Virus record (IMG/VR): IMGVR_UViG_3300009597_000023
Coordinates: 1 to 45,653 of that record
DNA: 45,653 nucleotides
From: a virus
Reading direction: 5' to 3' (one strand)
A program made the translations under genes and the position numbers. Below the pieces are notes generated by a model. It saw only the letters and a list, made by a program, of their open reading frames with translations. It was not told where the DNA came from and searched no databases. Below, one piece after another: positions 1 to 45,653 of this stretch (the first letter of the stretch is position 1; every line of letters starts with the position of its first letter).

Positions 1-290
1 AACGCCTTCACCTTCGCCACGACGTCGTCGGCCGCGAGATGGTCGTCGTCGGCGACGACGGCGACGTAGAGGCCGCGCAGCGCTGGCGCGTACCACTTGA
101 TCCGCCCGAACAGGCCCCACGCGATGCCGTGGCCGACGTGGTCCGGCACGATGACCTGCTCGACGTGCTCGCGCGCCGTCTGCCGCGCGACGCTCTCGAT
201 GTTCCTCACGAGCGCCTGCGGACGGCGGAACGTCGGCGTGTAGAGCGAGACGAACGGCGGCGCGGTCGGCAGCGGCACCGGCGGCCTCAC
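1..290 (-). CDS. Glycosyltransferase-like protein, 3' part beyond window
   Basis: The GTG start at 290 overlaps the stop of the upstream methyltransferase (GTGA). The visible 96 residues begin with a GT-A type first strand (VSLYTPTFRRP) followed by a helix, and end with an acidic stretch VVADDDHLAADDV that resembles the metal-binding DxD region of family 2 glycosyltransferases. The catalytic C-terminal half lies outside the window. It is probably a sugar transferase working with the GT-like genes at 4430-5943. The acceptor is unknown. Confidence 0.7.
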   Translation of the reverse strand, partial: MRPPVPLPTAPPFVSLYTPTFRRPQALVRNIESVARQTAREHVEQVIVPDHVGHGIAWGLFGRIKWYAPALRGLYVAVVADDDHLAADDVVAKVKA

Positions 291-859
291 GCGACCTGCT
301 CCGCGAAGCAGTAGCTGTGCACGTGGTCGTCCCACTGGAAGTCGACCGGATGGCTGTGCACGTAGCCCGCCTCGCGCAGGTCGGCCTCGAACTCCTCGCG
401 CACCGCCGTCCAGACCGCGACGTCGCCGGTCCCGTCGCCGATGATGATGTCGGCGATCAGCTCGTCCGCCTTTCGCGCGAACGCCGCCAGGTATGCCCTG
501 CGCTCGTCGCGGCCCATGTGCGTGAAAACCGAGATGCACAGCACGGTCTGGAACTGGCCTGGCGGAAGGTCGTGCGACCCGGTCATCAGCATGGCCGGGA
601 TCTTCTTCCGCTCGCAGTACTCGATCGCCGACGGCGCGATGTCGGTCCCGACGTAGCTCGTGCAGACCTGCGCCGCGCGCCCGGTCCCGCAGCCGACGTC
701 GAGCACATCCCGCAGCGGCAGCTCGATCACGAGCGCGGCCGCGATCTCCCGCAGGTCCGGCGCGTCGAGCAGGCGCCGTGCGCCGGTCATGTCCGGCACG
801 TTGCGCCAGCCGCGATCCCAGTAGGCGGCGTCCACGTGCAGCGTCTTCTGTTCGCTCAT
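287..859 (-). CDS. Class I SAM-dependent methyltransferase
   Basis: This 190-residue protein has a Rossmann methyltransferase core. Motif I DVLDVGCGTGR is near residues 51-61, an acidic strand end YVGTDIAPSAIEYC follows, and a motif-IV-like segment (VLCISVFTHM) comes later. The target is unknown; the flanking glycosyltransferase fragment suggests a sugar or small molecule rather than DNA. Its start overlaps the stop of the tail-completion gene (ATGA), so it belongs to the late operon although it is not a typical structural gene. Confidence 0.8.
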   Translation of the reverse strand: MSEQKTLHVDAAYWDRGWRNVPDMTGARRLLDAPDLREIAAALVIELPLRDVLDVGCGTGRAAQVCTSYVGTDIAPSAIEYCERKKIPAMLMTGSHDLPPGQFQTVLCISVFTHMGRDERRAYLAAFARKADELIADIIIGDGTGDVAVWTAVREEFEADLREAGYVHSHPVDFQWDDHVHSYCFAEQVA

Positions 860-15736: not shown

Positions 15737-17329
15737 CTACGGCGCCATAACGGTGCCGGTCAGGTCGTGCCCGAGCGCGCGCCAGCCGTCCCAGTCCTTC
15801 GCGCCCCAGTAGCCCGTGAACTCGCCGTTCGGGTCGGTCCACATCCACATCCACGCGCCCGCCGGCACGGTGTAGGCGTTGGCGCGGAACCAGTTGCCCT
15901 TCCCGTTCAGCACGTAGTCGGCGTAGAAGGTCGGGAACAGCCCGCCGGTGCAGGCGGCGGCGTAGGAGAACGTCGCCGCATGCCCGGCCATCTGGCGGAT
16001 GCGGTTGTCGTGCGCGTTGTTCCCCTTCAGATCCGGCGACCAGTGCCATCCCTGCGTCAGGATGCCGCAGTTGATGTAGTACTGGATCCCGAACTGCCCG
16101 TTGTCCGCGATGTCGTTGTCGTAGATGTCGAGGTCCCGCGACGACGAGACGAAGACGCCGCCTCCCGCGTTCCCGCGGCTGACGTTCCGGCGCATGACCG
16201 TCTCGACGCTGCCCTCAAGGTGGAAACCGGCACCGCCGTTGAACTCCGAGACGTTGTCCTCGAGAAGGCATCCCTTCCCGTTCCCGTCGTTCCACCAGCC
16301 GTGGCTGACGTTGTGGTGGAAGTGGTTGCCCCGTACGACGCACGGCGCGTTCGTGTCGAGCGCCTTCTGCAGCCCGTTCACGCCAACGCTCTGGTTCCTG
16401 GCGACCTCGTTGTGCTCGAACGTGAACGGCTTGTCGGGCATGAAGATGCTGTAGCCGCCCTCGCCGTTGTCGTTCAGCTTGTTCCAGCGGTAGACGACGC
16501 CGCTCGTCGTGACCGCGCCGACGCCGCGGTTCCCGGAGAAGTCGTTGTGCTCGAGCGTCCAGTCGTCCGGGCCGCCGGTGTTCGTCCAGACGCCGTTGAT
16601 CGAGGCGTAGTCCGGCCACGCGAACACGCCGTGCCACGCGGATTTCCTGACGATGCAGTTGCGGATGGTGACGTAGTCGGCCGCGTTCGGGCCGATGGCA
16701 ACAATGATCCCGGACTCGTGGACGTAGCCGGCCGGGTTCTCGAGGAACGCGCCGAACTCGCACGTCAGGAGTTGACCGGCGCGCGGCGTGATGTGTGTGA
16801 CGACATGCACGCCGGCGCCGAGGCACACGCTGAGCGAGCCGTTGAGCGCCTGCTGGACGCTCTCGCCCGGCGCGACCCTCGCGGCGTCGGCCGGGCAGGC
16901 AATGTCCGGTGTCGGGCCGTAGCCTGACGTCGGCGGAGGCGGCGGCGTAGGCGGCGGCGGCGGAGGCGGAGGCGGAGGCGCAGCGTCGACGTGCACGGAG
17001 ACCAGGACCGTGACGTGCACGCCGTTCGCCGAGACCGCGAACGACCCGGCGTAGTCGCCGGTCGGCAGCGGCGCGACCGAGACGGTCAGTGTGCCGCGGT
17101 TCGTGCCGGACATCGGCGTCACCGCGATCCATGAGGCCGACGGCGACCCGACGCTCCACTTGAGCGCGCCGCGCCCGACGCGCGCGACGTCGACGGTCTT
17201 CGGCTGGGCGGCCGTCCCGGCGACGGCGGCGAACGAGAGCGAGGTCGGCGACACGGACAGGGCGCTCTGCGCGCTGGCCGAGGCGGAGACGAGCAGGCAG
17301 AGGGTGAGCGCGAGAAGGCGGACAGGCAT
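15737..17329 (-). CDS. Secreted BACON-domain / parallel beta-helix protein
   Basis: This 530-residue protein starts behind TAGGAGG. Residues 1-20 form a Sec signal peptide ending ASASA. A BACON-like Ig domain follows (ALSVSPTSLSFAAVAG, then WIAVTPMSGTNRGTLTVSV), then a polyproline linker near residues 115-135. A right-handed beta-helix follows with repeated Asn turns (VIRNC-like, LEHNDFSGN, FEHNEVARN, VRGNHFHHN). Such proteins are usually polysaccharide lyases or binders. An exported copy in a phage, inside a tRNA island, is unusual; substrate unknown. Confidence 0.8.
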   Translation of the reverse strand: MPVRLLALTLCLLVSASASAQSALSVSPTSLSFAAVAGTAAQPKTVDVARVGRGALKWSVGSPSASWIAVTPMSGTNRGTLTVSVAPLPTGDYAGSFAVSANGVHVTVLVSVHVDAAPPPPPPPPPPTPPPPPTSGYGPTPDIACPADAARVAPGESVQQALNGSLSVCLGAGVHVVTHITPRAGQLLTCEFGAFLENPAGYVHESGIIVAIGPNAADYVTIRNCIVRKSAWHGVFAWPDYASINGVWTNTGGPDDWTLEHNDFSGNRGVGAVTTSGVVYRWNKLNDNGEGGYSIFMPDKPFTFEHNEVARNQSVGVNGLQKALDTNAPCVVRGNHFHHNVSHGWWNDGNGKGCLLEDNVSEFNGGAGFHLEGSVETVMRRNVSRGNAGGGVFVSSSRDLDIYDNDIADNGQFGIQYYINCGILTQGWHWSPDLKGNNAHDNRIRQMAGHAATFSYAAACTGGLFPTFYADYVLNGKGNWFRANAYTVPAGAWMWMWTDPNGEFTGYWGAKDWDGWRALGHDLTGTVMAP

Positions 17330-37990: not shown

Positions 37991-38893
37991 CTAGGCCGGA
38001 AGGCCCGGTTCCGACACCGCAGGCGCGTCGGTCGCGATGGCCGCGTCCTGCACGGACGCGCCAGTCTGGAGCAAGTAGGCGAGCATACCGTCCCCGTGAA
38101 CGTTGAGCAGGAACTCGTCGCCATGGATACGGATGATGTTCGCGAAGTCCTCGGCCTGCTTCAGCTGCCACGGCGAGCAGATGAAGCGCCGCGGCGGCAG
38201 ACCGCCGCCGTCGATCGTGACCTCCATGCGCTTGTCGCGCGCGTTCTCCGGCTGCGGGAACGCGTGGTGCTCGGCGCCCTTCCAGCAGCTGTCGACGCCG
38301 AACAGGTCGAAGCGCAGATAGCCGAGCAGCCTGAGCAGCATGATCGCCCGCGTCGCGACCGTCACCCCGCCGCCGATCGGGCACCAGCGGCCCTGGCCGT
38401 AGTAGGCGTCCAGCTCGCGCTAGACCGGCGTGTCGTCGCCTGTGCTCGCGTGAAAGATCCAGACGTTTTCGCGCCCAGCGACCGCGTTCCACGTGTCCGG
38501 CGCGCACTGCGACGCGACCATGTAGCGGCACTGCGGCGTCACCGGATCGACGAAGCGCGCGTTCGACGGCCGCGCGTCGAGCACGATCTGCGTCCGCGGC
38601 TGCAGGTTCCGCTCGAGGCACCAGTGGTAGGCGCCGTTCATCGTCACCAGCTTCGCGCCGGCGAACACCAGGTCGCGCAGCTCGTCGGCCGTGTCGTTCA
38701 GGGTCGGCCCGCTGCCGACCAGGCAGACGCGGTCGCCGCGCGGCGGCACCGGATGCACCTGCGGGTGCTGCCGCCCGATCGCCGCCTGCACGTTCGCGAG
38801 GACGCCGTCATCGTCGACGTTGACCAAGCCGTTCGTCATCGCGTCGCCGAGGCGCGGGTCTGTGTAGGCGAAGATCGGCGCCAGGTCGCTCAT
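37991..38893 (-). pseudogene. DUF115/MptE-like protein interrupted by in-frame TAG
   Basis: The start MSDLAPIF at 38893 (ATGA overlap) runs to a TAG at 38420-38422 (codon 158), and the same frame then continues to 37991 (300 codons in all). The first part has CLVGSGPTLNDTADEL and AGAKLVTMNGAYHW. The second continues RELDAYYGQGRWCPIGGG and LRLLGYLRFDLFGVDSCW. Both parts belong to one Rossmann-like MptE/MAF domain. Readthrough, recent mutation or sequencing error are all possible; I see no amber-suppressor tRNA. Confidence 0.7.
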
Positions 38894-39495
38894 CGCTGCC
38901 TCAGATAGAAGGTCGCGTAGCCGAGCAGGTCGCGCGCGTCGACGACGACGGCGACCTCGGAGAACATGTCCCGCCACCACGTGAAGTGCTTGACGGTCTT
39001 GTGCAGCGACTCGCCGATCCAGACGCCGTAGGTGTCAGAGCTGGTCGCGACGCTGACGAACGCGCCCTGCCGCGCGACGGCGACGAGCCGGTGCGCGACG
39101 AGCATCGTCAGCGCTTCCGGAATGTGCTCGAGGACGTCGCAGCAGTAGGTGTAGTCGTGGTAGCCGAGCGGCCTCAGGTCGTCCCAGAGCGTCCGGATCT
39201 GACGGAACGGCAGCGCGTGCGCCTTGGCCTCCTCGACGCGGCCGTCGACGAAGTCGCAGAGCGTCACGCGGAAGCCGGCCTTCGCCAGCGCGAGCGCGCC
39301 CTTCCCGGTGCCGCAGCCGCAGTCAAGGACGTCGAGCCCGAGGAACTTGCCCTCGCTCGGCGCGACTCCGATCGCGTCAAGAAACACGCGGACGTGCATC
39401 TCCCCAGGCGAATGGTCGCCGTAGACAGGAATCGATGCGAAGACGTCCTCATAGAGCGCACGCTCACGTGCGCCGACTGGTGTCAGTCCGCTCAA
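38890..39495 (-). CDS. Class I SAM methyltransferase
   Basis: This 201-residue protein has a TTG start at 39495. LDVLDCGCGTGKGALALAKAG is motif I (in parts LDVLDCGCG and TGKGALALAK), followed by VTLCDFVDGRVEEAKA and the motif-IV-like YCCDVLEHIPEAL. It resembles small UbiE/SAM sugar methyltransferases. It is coupled to the DUF115 gene, suggesting a joint role in glycan modification. Confidence 0.78.
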   Translation of the reverse strand: MSGLTPVGARERALYEDVFASIPVYGDHSPGEMHVRVFLDAIGVAPSEGKFLGLDVLDCGCGTGKGALALAKAGFRVTLCDFVDGRVEEAKAHALPFRQIRTLWDDLRPLGYHDYTYCCDVLEHIPEALTMLVAHRLVAVARQGAFVSVATSSDTYGVWIGESLHKTVKHFTWWRDMFSEVAVVVDARDLLGYATFYLRQR

Positions 39496-40538: not shown

Positions 40539-41129
40539 CTACGACCGCGAGGTCGCCTTGCACGCGTAGCCGGCTGCGCGCAGCTCCTCGATCAGCGACG
40601 CCTGCTCGTCGGCGTCCCGGCACGTCACGACGACGTTCGTCGCCGTCGCCGCGTCGAACTCGACGTGGCGCTTCTCCCGCTTCAGCACCGCCGCGAGGTC
40701 CAGTTCCGAGTCCGGGAAGTCGAGCGCCGAGTCCGCCAACAGCTCGTCCAGTTTGTCGCCGTCGAGCGCGGCCATTGCCCCGATCGCGTCGAACGTCGCC
40801 AGCACCCGGCGCTCCTCGGCCGGCGTCAGGTCGACGTAGACGACCGGGACCGGCGTCTCCTCGCCGCGCGTCAGCGCCAGCTCGGTCCGCAGGTGCCCGT
40901 CGATCATCGTCTCGACGCCGCGCTTGTCGCCCCACTCGGGCGACGTCCGCTTGTTGACGATCGCGTGCTGGATGAAGCCGATCTCGCCGAGCACGGTCGT
41001 CAGCGCGTCCTGTTGCGCGCGAGGGTGGATGCGGAAGTTCGCCGGGTTCGCCAACAGCTGCCCGGCCGGGACGTCGGCCGTGCCGAGAATCCGCTTGCCG
41101 AACGGCGCCGCGCTGCGCTTACGTGCCAC
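40539..41129 (-). CDS. ParB-like nuclease-domain protein
   Basis: This 196-residue protein has a GTG start. LLANPANFRIHPRAQ, TVLGEIGFIQHAIVNKRT and TMIDGHLRTELAL correspond to ParB boxes of the ParB/Srx superfamily. Phage members often accompany DNA methyltransferases or act as CTP/ATP-dependent switches. The exact role is unknown. Confidence 0.8.
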   Translation of the reverse strand: MARKRSAAPFGKRILGTADVPAGQLLANPANFRIHPRAQQDALTTVLGEIGFIQHAIVNKRTSPEWGDKRGVETMIDGHLRTELALTRGEETPVPVVYVDLTPAEERRVLATFDAIGAMAALDGDKLDELLADSALDFPDSELDLAAVLKREKRHVEFDAATATNVVVTCRDADEQASLIEELRAAGYACKATSRS

Positions 41130-43230: not shown

Positions 43231-43430
43231 GCGCGCGCCTTCGCCTTCCTGTAGGCCGCCGACCGCGCCTTCACGGCCTCGCGGTGCTTCTCGTAGTAGC
43301 GTCGCCGGTAGACCTTGTTCTTCCAGACGTGGTAGGCGCACGGCTTGCCGCCGCCGCAGACGATGCATCTCCCGGCCGAGCGCTGCTTCTCGCGCCAGCG
43401 CCCGGACGTCTGCGCCCTAGTCAGCGGCAT
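43227..43430 (-). CDS. Small zinc-finger protein
   Basis: This 67-residue protein contains RCIVCGGGKPCAYHVW and a very basic helix (RRRYYEKHREAVKARS), a type often seen next to phage recombination genes. Confidence 0.65.
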   Translation of the reverse strand: MPLTRAQTSGRWREKQRSAGRCIVCGGGKPCAYHVWKNKVYRRRYYEKHREAVKARSAAYRKAKARA

Positions 43431-43833
43431 CGATCCGCCTCGCCACCCTGGCCGCGCCGCGCGACGGGTCCTCGTGCTCCCAGACGACCATCGTGCGCCA
43501 GCCGAGCGCGCGCAGCTGGCGGCGGACGCGGATGTCGCGGCGCCGGTTCGCGTCCATCTTCCTGCGCCATGCCTCGCCCGAGGGCGGCTTGTAGTGCCGC
43601 GAGCACAGGTGCCAGAAGCAGCCGTGCATGAACACGGCGAGCCGCGTGCCCGTCCACGCGTGGTGCACGACGAAGTCCGGCCGCCCAGGCAGGCGGTTCT
43701 TGCGCCGCGAGAACATCGCGTAGGCCGGCAGCGTGGCGCGCAGCGCGCGGGCGAGCGCCAGCTCTGGCTTCGTGTCCCGCGACTTGATTGCCCGCATGAT
43801 GCGCGAGCGCGTGGCCGCGTCTACGCGGTCCAT
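43417..43833 (-). CDS. vsr: Very short patch repair endonuclease (Vsr)
   Basis: This 138-residue protein has IKSRDTKPELALARAL, LPGRPDFVVHH and VFMHGCFWHLCSRHYKPP, the Vsr signature with catalytic Asp and His/Cys zinc ligands. The C-terminus has GWRTMVVWEHE. Vsr nicks T:G mismatches that arise at methylated cytosines. It may be a self-repair tool or a nicking enzyme. Confidence 0.88.
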   Translation of the reverse strand: MDRVDAATRSRIMRAIKSRDTKPELALARALRATLPAYAMFSRRKNRLPGRPDFVVHHAWTGTRLAVFMHGCFWHLCSRHYKPPSGEAWRRKMDANRRRDIRVRRQLRALGWRTMVVWEHEDPSRGAARVARRIDAAD

Positions 43834-44474
43834 TAGAACAGCGCCGCCTGGCCGTCCGTGTCGACGTCGAACGCGACGTCCCGTACGGCCACCGTGACGG
43901 CTTCATTAGCATCGGCCTGCGCGACCTTCTCGGCCGGAAACGGGACAGGCACGGGCTCGGTCTCGGCGACGGCCACGGCGTCCGGCGTCTCGGCGTCCCA
44001 GCTTATCGCCTCCTGCCCGGTCGTGACCGGCTTGAACTGGCTCCAGTCGAACTTCGTAAGGACGCCGAAGTACTTTATGCGCTCGGCGTCGAACGGCGAC
44101 ACTGAGGCCAGCTGGCCTACAGTCGCCCCGGCGTCGAGCAGCCCGGCCACGGCGAACGCCAGTCGGGCGTAGTTGACCTCGAACCCGATCTCGAGCGCCA
44201 GCATCAGCGCCGTCGCACTGTCGGCCGTTACAGGCCCGACGTTGAAGGCCGTCGCCGTGGTCGCGCCGCACTCGCGCATTGCCGCGGCGAGGCGCCTGCC
44301 GTCCAGAACCGCCATGCCTGCGTCTGGCAGGTAGCCAACCACGAGCGGCCGCAGCTGGCCGTAGCGGCGCAGGGACGCCTTAAGCTTCTCGAAGGTCGCT
44401 GGGTCGTCGCGCTTCCATCCGCCGTCGCAGTCGAGCGCGGTGAGGTTCACCTGGACCTGGCCTAGCTGCTCCAT
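43833..44474 (-). CDS. ParB-like N-domain protein
   Basis: This 213-residue protein has LKASLRRYGQLRPLVVGYL and AVLDGRRLAAAMRECGA, the ParB/Srx superfamily boxes. DAGATVGQLASVS follows as a possible helix-turn-helix. The acidic C-terminus is low-complexity. It lies next to the TGT-like gene and may be linked to DNA modification. Confidence 0.75.
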   Translation of the reverse strand: MEQLGQVQVNLTALDCDGGWKRDDPATFEKLKASLRRYGQLRPLVVGYLPDAGMAVLDGRRLAAAMRECGATTATAFNVGPVTADSATALMLALEIGFEVNYARLAFAVAGLLDAGATVGQLASVSPFDAERIKYFGVLTKFDWSQFKPVTTGQEAISWDAETPDAVAVAETEPVPVPFPAEKVAQADANEAVTVAVRDVAFDVDTDGQAALF

Positions 44475-45286
44475 TTCACACCTTTCGAGACCCACAGGTC
44501 TGTCGCATAGCGTTCGACTGACGCCTGAACGCGCAGGTTGTGCGCCCACCTGCCGGCGAACGAGTTCTCGGACACGCCGTCGGCGATCTCGCCGTTCCAG
44601 CTGACGGCGAGATCGTCGCGCCAGTTCAGCCAGGCCAGCGTGCCGTCGCCGCGGGACGCCTGCACTACCCCCATTCCGGCGCCGCGGACGGCCGACGACG
44701 TGTCGGCGCTGTACACCGGATAGCGCTCGAGCACCCACGGCTGCGCCGACCCGAACAGGTGCACGCGCACGGGCCAGTACCGCTCGAGAAGCGAGAAGCA
44801 CCCGTCAAGATACGGCCCCACGGTCTCGCGCGTCGCGCGCAGGCCGCGCGCGGACGACGTGGCCATGCCACCGAGCGCGATGTAGTCGAACTCGACGGCC
44901 ATCGACTCGAGGAATTTCCACGGGCTGCCGCGGTGGTAGGTCGGGATCGGCCTGAGGCCGCGCGCGACCATCGCGTCGGTGTTCGCGCGCGTCGCGTCCG
45001 GGTCGCCGATCACATCGAGCGCGGCGTAGGCTGTAATAAGCGCGGCGTTCTCGGTCACGAACTCGCAGTATCGGCCGAGGTCGATCGCAGTCCCCTTCGT
45101 GAACGCCGAGAACGCGCCTGAGTCCATTAGCACGCGCCCGGACGGGAACTCGCGCTTCCATTGCAGCACGCGCGCGACCTGCGGCCTGTCGGCGTAGGTC
45201 GTCAGCCGGTTCGCCATTAGCCCGGCCGACATCAGCGCGGCCTCCTCGCTATCAGACCCCGTGCTGCCGGCGCTGTAGATGATCAC
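44462..45286 (-). CDS. TGT/DpdA-like 7-deazaguanine transglycosylase
   Basis: This 274-residue protein has a GTG start. GRVLMDSGAFSAFTKGTAID, YAALDVIGDPDATRANTDAMV and DYIALGGMATSSARGL follow the TIM-barrel pattern of the phage DpdA/queuine transglycosylase group (Asp nucleophile in DSGAFS). Such enzymes exchange guanine for a 7-deazaguanine in DNA. No preQ0-synthesis genes are visible, so precursor supply would be external. Confidence 0.7.
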   Translation of the reverse strand: MIIYSAGSTGSDSEEAALMSAGLMANRLTTYADRPQVARVLQWKREFPSGRVLMDSGAFSAFTKGTAIDLGRYCEFVTENAALITAYAALDVIGDPDATRANTDAMVARGLRPIPTYHRGSPWKFLESMAVEFDYIALGGMATSSARGLRATRETVGPYLDGCFSLLERYWPVRVHLFGSAQPWVLERYPVYSADTSSAVRGAGMGVVQASRGDGTLAWLNWRDDLAVSWNGEIADGVSENSFAGRWAHNLRVQASVERYATDLWVSKGVKWSS

Positions 45287-45653
45287 CTAAAAGAGCCCTT
45301 GCTGGCCTTCGCGCCCGCACACATAGGCCACCTCCTGCGCGCACTGCGGCAGCAGCGCCGCGATCGTCACCAGCGCGAACTCGCGCGGCATTTCCGCGTA
45401 GATCCGCTCTGCCGTCTCGAGATCGACGCCGGACAGGCGCGCCCTGAACGCCTTCGCGCCGGTGCTCAGCCCGTGCCGGCTGCGCACGCGCCAGCCCGCC
45501 GCGCCGAGCCACTCAAGCAGCTCGGCCTCGGTCGGTTCGTAGACGTGCGCCGCGTAGTGCGCCGCGTAGCCGCTGCGACCCGGTTCGGTAATCGGACAGC
45601 TGAGGTAGAGCAGCGTCTCCGGCTTCGCTAGCAGCGCGCACTGCCGCAGGCTC
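45287..45653 (-). CDS. Methyltransferase-like protein, 5' part beyond window
   Basis: Only the last 121 residues are visible. LLAKPETLLYLSCPI, AAHVYEPTEAELLEWLGAAGW and a C-terminal helical region resemble the end of small SAM-dependent methyltransferases. Its TAG directly precedes the TGT-like start. Confidence 0.6.
   Translation of the reverse strand, partial: SLRQCALLAKPETLLYLSCPITEPGRSGYAAHYAAHVYEPTEAELLEWLGAAGWRVRSRHGLSTGAKAFRARLSGVDLETAERIYAEMPREFALVTIAALLPQCAQEVAYVCGREGQQGLF

Follow-up and report, generated by a model that had tools for sequence, protein, structure and literature searches.

Organisation of the locus

The window that we analysed is an entire IMG/VR record of 45,653 bases, with a G+C content of about 68%, whose terminase, portal and head genes point to a tailed phage. 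Nearly all of its called genes are on the minus strand, so that upstream is to the right in the window and, the window being the whole record, the 5′ side of the operon is cut off. At 43417-45653 (-), four genes follow one another head to tail (Table 1), as an earlier note on this DNA had described: a methyltransferase fragment (P0002), a dpdA-type gene (P0001), a ParB-like gene (P0003) and vsr (P0004). The dpdA-type and ParB-like genes overlap by 13 nt, and the ParB-like gene and vsr by 1 nt.

Table 1. Features of the dpdA locus, with positions in the window.
Feature	Position	Strand	Remarks
SAM methyltransferase (class I) gene P0002, 3′ part	45287..45652	-	cut by the contig end; homologue at L036:5081-5881
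QQGLF, C-terminus of P0002 (second clamp-binding-like tail)	45290..45304	-	from sequence
dpdA-type gene P0001	44462..45286	-	274 aa, GTG start, compact form, C-terminal end ...DLWVSKGVKWSS
D55 codon in DSGAF	45122..45124	-	invariant among 28 aligned sequences
H176 codon, equivalent to H196 of 9g DpdA	44759..44761	-	from the alignment with relatives
D195 codon in YSADTSS	44702..44704	-	invariant among 28 aligned sequences
ParB-like gene P0003	43833..44474	-	213 aa; ParB fold; homologous to the ParB-like protein beside Cellulophaga phiSM dpdA
Degenerate nucleotide motif DGRRL	44289..44303	-	in 40 other partners, G..R motif with the arginine last
Predicted disordered tail, residues 155-213 of P0003	43836..44012	-	pLDDT <50 at 155-180 and 187-213
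QAALF, clamp-binding-like C-terminal pentapeptide of P0003	43836..43850	-	from sequence and tail statistics
Vsr-type endonuclease gene P0004	43417..43833	-	TIGR00632 (NCBIfam): 101.6 bits, above the cut-off of 97.85

Elsewhere in the window, a second ParB-like protein (phrog_498/620) is encoded at 40539-41129 (-), among replication genes. Two more SAM methyltransferase-like genes lie at 38890-39495 and 287-859 (-), and a weak MptE-like match at 38420-38980. The gene at 15737-17329 (-) encodes a right-handed beta-helix protein that includes a viral BACON domain and probably belongs to the tail or a fibre.

P0001 belongs with the phage DpdA proteins

The TGT/DpdA-like protein of the earlier note is placed in phage DpdA by its fold, its motifs, its profile and a histidine that DpdA2 proteins lack, and we have little doubt about this assignment. 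Indeed, P0001 matches phrog_887 'queuine tRNA-ribosyltransferase' (E 9.5e-39), which is also the best match for the DpdAs of phages 9g and CAjan. The best PDB structure matches of its AlphaFold model (pLDDT 82, pTM 0.85) are TGTs, with a Z of 18.6 and an rmsd of 3.4-3.6 over about 250 residues. Residues D55, H118, H176 and D195 are invariant or nearly so across 28 relatives. We take D55, in DSGAF, to be part of the general-base motif of TGT/DpdA and D195, in YSADTSS, to lie in the nucleophile motif, both roles being carried over from TGT. H176 aligns with the HGFG of 9g at 196; DpdA2 proteins are described as lacking His196 of the 9g numbering (PMC6884629), which rules out P0001 as a DpdA2.

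Pfam has no match for P0001, as is also the case for the 9g and CAjan DpdAs, and the PADLOC DpdA profile matches 20 of the 28 relatives and not P0001. PDB sequences searched with phmmer and with profiles yielded weak matches only, including the DNA-guanine transglycosylase 7ui4 (E 0.42), and a search of viral contigs with P0001 alone returned no relatives.

The methyltransferase fragment and the precursor genes

Taken alone, P0002 matched no family profile and found no relatives in viral contigs or in phages. It aligns (E 4e-13) with the C-terminal part of a complete Methyltransf_11-type protein encoded directly 5′ of dpdA at another locus, L036, which has the same methyltransferase-dpdA-parB order, with folE-queE-queD just upstream. 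This homologue in the same place shows that the methyltransferase-like fragment is real. Such a gene is present in 5 of 217 loci, the window counted. A reading of P0002 as a C5 DNA methyltransferase is not supported by the L036 homologue, whose profile matches are of the Methyltransf_11 kind and include no C5 DNA methylase. Its C-terminal pentapeptide is the sole strict QxxLF tail among the 58 automatically called genes of the window, a set that does not contain the ParB-like gene.

The precursor genes were expected to lie outside the window or in the host, and a search of the 45.7-kb window at E 0.01 for homologues of FolE, QueD, QueE and QueC accordingly found none. In many relatives preQ0 genes lie near dpdA, and since the window ends where L036 has folE-queE-queD, the missing precursor genes may be found immediately beyond the end of the contig. 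It has also been proposed that the host may supply preQ0 (PMC6884629).

Phage DpdAs are of two kinds

We compared two sets of loci. Set 1 holds 101 loci gathered by DpdA similarity, namely the window, four named phages and 96 IMG/VR loci, although one of these phages, phiSM, entered through its ParB-like protein; the counts omit 10 duplicates and two truncated rows of the 101. Set 2 (80 loci) serves as a repeat, the tail patterns having been chosen on set 1. It was led by the phiSM DpdA as query and the phiSM group is thus enriched in it.

By tail and by neighbour, phage DpdAs fall into two kinds. In the first, to which 9g and CAjan belong, the protein often carries a clamp-binding-like C-terminal peptide and a sliding-clamp gene often lies alongside. 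This is the case for 9g (tail QDLFDE) and CAjan (VMELF), where the clamp gene is next to dpdA or next but one; deletion of the CAjan dpdA is reported to abolish modification (PMC6884629 Table 2). In the second kind, which includes P0001, the C-terminus is LWxxRGxxW-like and a ParB-like gene adjoins dpdA. No clamp gene was found in the window.

In set 1, a ParB-like gene adjoins 31 of 33 LW-tail dpdAs versus 2 of 55 others (Fisher p 5e-19, kinship ignored), and in the two LW exceptions it lies 0.5 and 0.8 kb downstream. The partner gene overlaps dpdA in 20 of 32 cases. The strict QxxLF tail shows the reverse distribution, being found in 19/55 non-LW DpdAs, 0/34 LW DpdAs and 5/1457 other ORFs, and it is associated with the clamp gene (17/32 clamp-adjacent loci vs 2/22 without a clamp, p 0.001). 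In set 2, the ParB-like neighbour was again found in 10 of 13 LW rows, to which one degenerate partner missed by the profile (L135) was added by eye; one further protein (L133) was called LW-tail by eye. QxxLF tails were seen there in 0/14 LW DpdAs, 7/58 other DpdAs and 4/489 other ORFs. The link between tail and clamp gene is absent from set 2 (0/11 vs 7/47), where divergent clamps may have escaped the three queries used to find clamps. When both sets were thinned at 50% identity, the ParB-like neighbour accompanied 22/24 LW DpdAs vs 2/56 others, and the strict tail 0/24 vs 8/56.

When mapped on a tree built from 92 core sequences, the ParB label requires 4 changes against a shuffled mean of 28, the two loci with the gene 0.5-0.8 kb away (L013 and L054) having been labelled ParB by hand. 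The label spans deep branches of this tree, and the clamp-linked rows are mostly in one part of it. A scan of GTDB genomes gave 26 loci, in one of which (L115) a ParB-like gene adjoins dpdA.

Some further observations concern these sets. GFxL-like DpdA tails, perhaps a docking peptide of another clamp type, occur in 13/55 DpdAs vs 6/1006 other ORFs (group L031, L037, L038, L041, L042, L050, L056, L074, L089 and L090). Several ORFs of 173-183 aa in the L132-L211 set, some with a TFVLV-like start, likewise end in LF. The same dpdA with its neighbours is present on two contigs of one Anaerolinea MAG (L112 and L113).

The ParB-like partner, its lost arginine and its tail

By itself, P0003 reaches only E 0.13 with Pfam ParB_N, and a first ParB alignment used as query found no relatives. 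However, P0003 matches the ParB-like phrog_723 (E 2e-7), its model has a ParB fold within residues 5-99 (Z 13.2 to ParB 7bnr over 93 residues), and ParB_N is matched by 26 of 27 aligned partners, P0003 being the lone miss. The ParB-like protein of the earlier note is thus borne out, and the conserved linkage makes it likely that it is a functional partner of DpdA.

Among 46 partners, the arginine of the G..R motif is kept in 40 and lost in 6. An LF-like tail is present in all six arginine-lost partners and in none of the 40 intact ones (Fisher p 1e-7, kinship ignored). These tails are QAALF in the window, SVNLF in phiSM, QISMFDED in L132, IDLFQ in L133, NFFFF in L134 and QTSLF in L135. Only three of them have the canonical spacing of the glutamine (QAALF, QISMF and QTSLF); SVNLF, IDLFQ and NFFFF are less convincing, and 45 of 1457 other ORFs also match the looser pattern used to include them. 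The bacterial clamp-binding consensus at C-termini is given as QL(S/D)LF (PMC9690074), which QAALF matches in part (3/5 places).

Five of the six arginine-lost partners (phiSM and L132-L135) form one clade. A single clade of the window and the phiSM group is rejected (AU p 0.001, on a tree that omits seven near-copies or fragments), so that the lost arginine and the tail arose at least twice, if the tree holds. Within the phiSM-group clade, the partner of L136 is intact and has no LF-like tail, and L137, a DpdA of the same group with no adjoining ParB-like gene, itself ends in QQLTLF. Mycobacteriophage Typha has a ParB-like gene two genes ahead of dpdA; the motif of its product, which was left out of the 46 partners, is not intact, and the product lacks an LF tail.

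Vsr as a neighbour

The earlier note had proposed a 7-deazaguanine module with Vsr. The DpdA, the methyltransferase fragment and the ParB-like gene stand, but not Vsr as a member: P0004 is a true member of the Vsr family, yet a homologue is absent from all 216 other fetched loci (217 in total). We thus ruled it out as part of the module, and P0004 is best read as a neighbour. Beyond what that note described, we observe the operonic DpdA-ParB pairing, the split of phage DpdAs into two kinds, and clamp-peptide-like tails on both the ParB-like protein and the methyltransferase fragment.

Discussion

We lean towards reading the window module as the part of a phage 7-deazaguanine DNA modification system that acts on the DNA itself, and in which the partner would dock DpdA on the clamp. 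The two halves of this proposal carry different weight. Judging from the sequences, DNA modification by this DpdA module is probable; clamp docking through the partner tail is put forward more tentatively, as something that may well prove otherwise.

As in other members of its family, the DpdA would swap guanine in the phage DNA for a preQ0-type base, and the ParB-like partner, whose linkage to it is conserved, may bring it to the DNA. Where the ParB nucleotide-binding motif is intact, as in most relatives, the partner could serve as a nucleotide-gated DNA clamp; ParB proteins are described as able to form CTP-dependent DNA-sliding clamps. In the window and the phiSM group, the loss of the motif together with a flexible, clamp-binding-like tail suggests that the ParB-derived partner may tether DpdA to the beta sliding clamp of replication, by which base modification would be coupled to replication. 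The methyltransferase, the fragment of which likewise has a QxxLF end, may further modify the base or work on the same platform, and the precursor would come from genes beyond the contig edge or from the host.

An alternative is a pair like the bacterial DpdA-DpdB, in which the partner would be driven by nucleotide, the tail incidental and the sliding clamp uninvolved. This is possible but, in our opinion, rather unlikely. It agrees with the description of base insertion by bacterial DpdB, a ParB-like ATPase (PMC12839542), and with the nucleotide-motif arginine being kept in most partners. A DpdB homologue beside phage dpdA was also proposed in the paper on phage CRB2 (PMC6392294), so that the pairing as such is not new. 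However, the window partner has lost this arginine (DGRRL), of 27 partners the PADLOC DpdB profile matches a single one (E 0.0065), which is not P0003, and such a pair leaves the strict co-occurrence of arginine loss and LF-like tail unexplained. It is improbable that this phage carries no modification at all, its dpdA having decayed or being starved of precursor as in mycobacteriophage Orion, the DNA of which is reported as unmodified (PMC6884629 Table 2). The lack of FolE, QueD, QueE and QueC homologues in the window would fit, but the contig breaks off at the very place of the L036 precursor genes, the catalytic motifs of DpdA are intact and preQ0 is possibly supplied by the host.

The remaining alternatives give the locus another function altogether. 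In one of them, which is very unlikely, cytosine methylation and mismatch repair would be the task of a module made up of the methyltransferase, the ParB-like protein and Vsr, with the TGT-like gene incidental. While Vsr is a genuine family member and ParB domains often accompany phage DNA methyltransferases (PADLOC MTase_II matches; PMC12783734), the L036 homologue of the methyltransferase fits the general Methyltransf_11 group and no C5 DNA methylase, none of the other loci carries a Vsr of this kind, and ParB accompanies dpdA across deep divergence. Hardly credible, finally, is a tRNA-guanine transglycosylase raising queuosine in host tRNA. TGTs are indeed the best solved-structure matches of P0001 and its family is annotated as queuine tRNA-ribosyltransferase, but the nearest profile is that of a phage family in which the DNA enzymes of 9g and CAjan are found as well, and the P0001 gene is paired with a DNA-binding type of protein. 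Moreover, the TGT zinc motif CxCxxC is found in 0/34 LW-tail DpdAs, P0001 included, and in 0/55 other phage DpdAs.

Clamp docking in the window might be one case of a wider rule, which we offer as a rather doubtful speculation. Phage DpdAs may generally need a DNA-sliding clamp, reached either through a beta-clamp peptide of their own or through a nucleotide-gated ParB partner, the two being exchangeable. The window and the phiSM group would then be the evolutionary bridge, with a ParB-derived adaptor that has lost its nucleotide switch and has acquired the clamp peptide, the base exchange following the replication fork. If modification is delivered by a clamp, this would help to explain the replacement of about 30% of guanines reported in phages such as CAjan and Rosebush (PMC6884629), and ParB-like genes beside phage DNA-modification enzymes would gain a testable role. 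Such genes have also been noted next to CmoX, with a role described as unknown (PMC12783734).

Comparison with known systems

The available text of PMC6884629 mentions neither ParB nor a clamp, and we found no link between DpdA and the sliding clamp within the limited literature searched. In the dpd islands of bacteria, too, the transglycosylase DpdA is described as acting together with a partner from the ParB superfamily (PMC12839542). However, bacterial DpdA is larger than P0001 (436 aa in 7ui4), and its DpdB is reported to be of the DndB type (PMC11888242), the DpdB profile being unmatched in the window. The alpha-glucosyltransferase of T4 likewise modifies the bases of phage DNA and binds the sliding clamp of replication, gp45, even though this binding was found not to decide the share of modification (PMC13216743). 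It differs from the window module in being an unrelated enzyme with another chemistry and in having no ParB-like adaptor.

Among phages, the DpdAs of 9g and CAjan have the family profile, the catalytic motifs and His196 in common with P0001. They are 306-317 aa long, with an LF-type tail and a clamp gene alongside, whereas P0001 ends in LWVSKGVKW and has a ParB-like partner. In Arthrobacter phage Mufasa8, dpdA also overlaps a ParB-like gene (gp90-gp91); precursor genes adjoin this pair, and its partner, unlike that of the window, has kept DGEHR and has no LF tail. The pair of Cellulophaga phage phiSM shares with the window a 13-nt overlap of dpdA and parB, a degenerate ParB nucleotide motif and an LF tail on the partner. 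The two DpdAs are nonetheless only about 27% identical and occupy separate places in the DpdA tree, and in phiSM, unlike in the window, preQ0 genes and a clamp gene surround the dpdA-parB pair.
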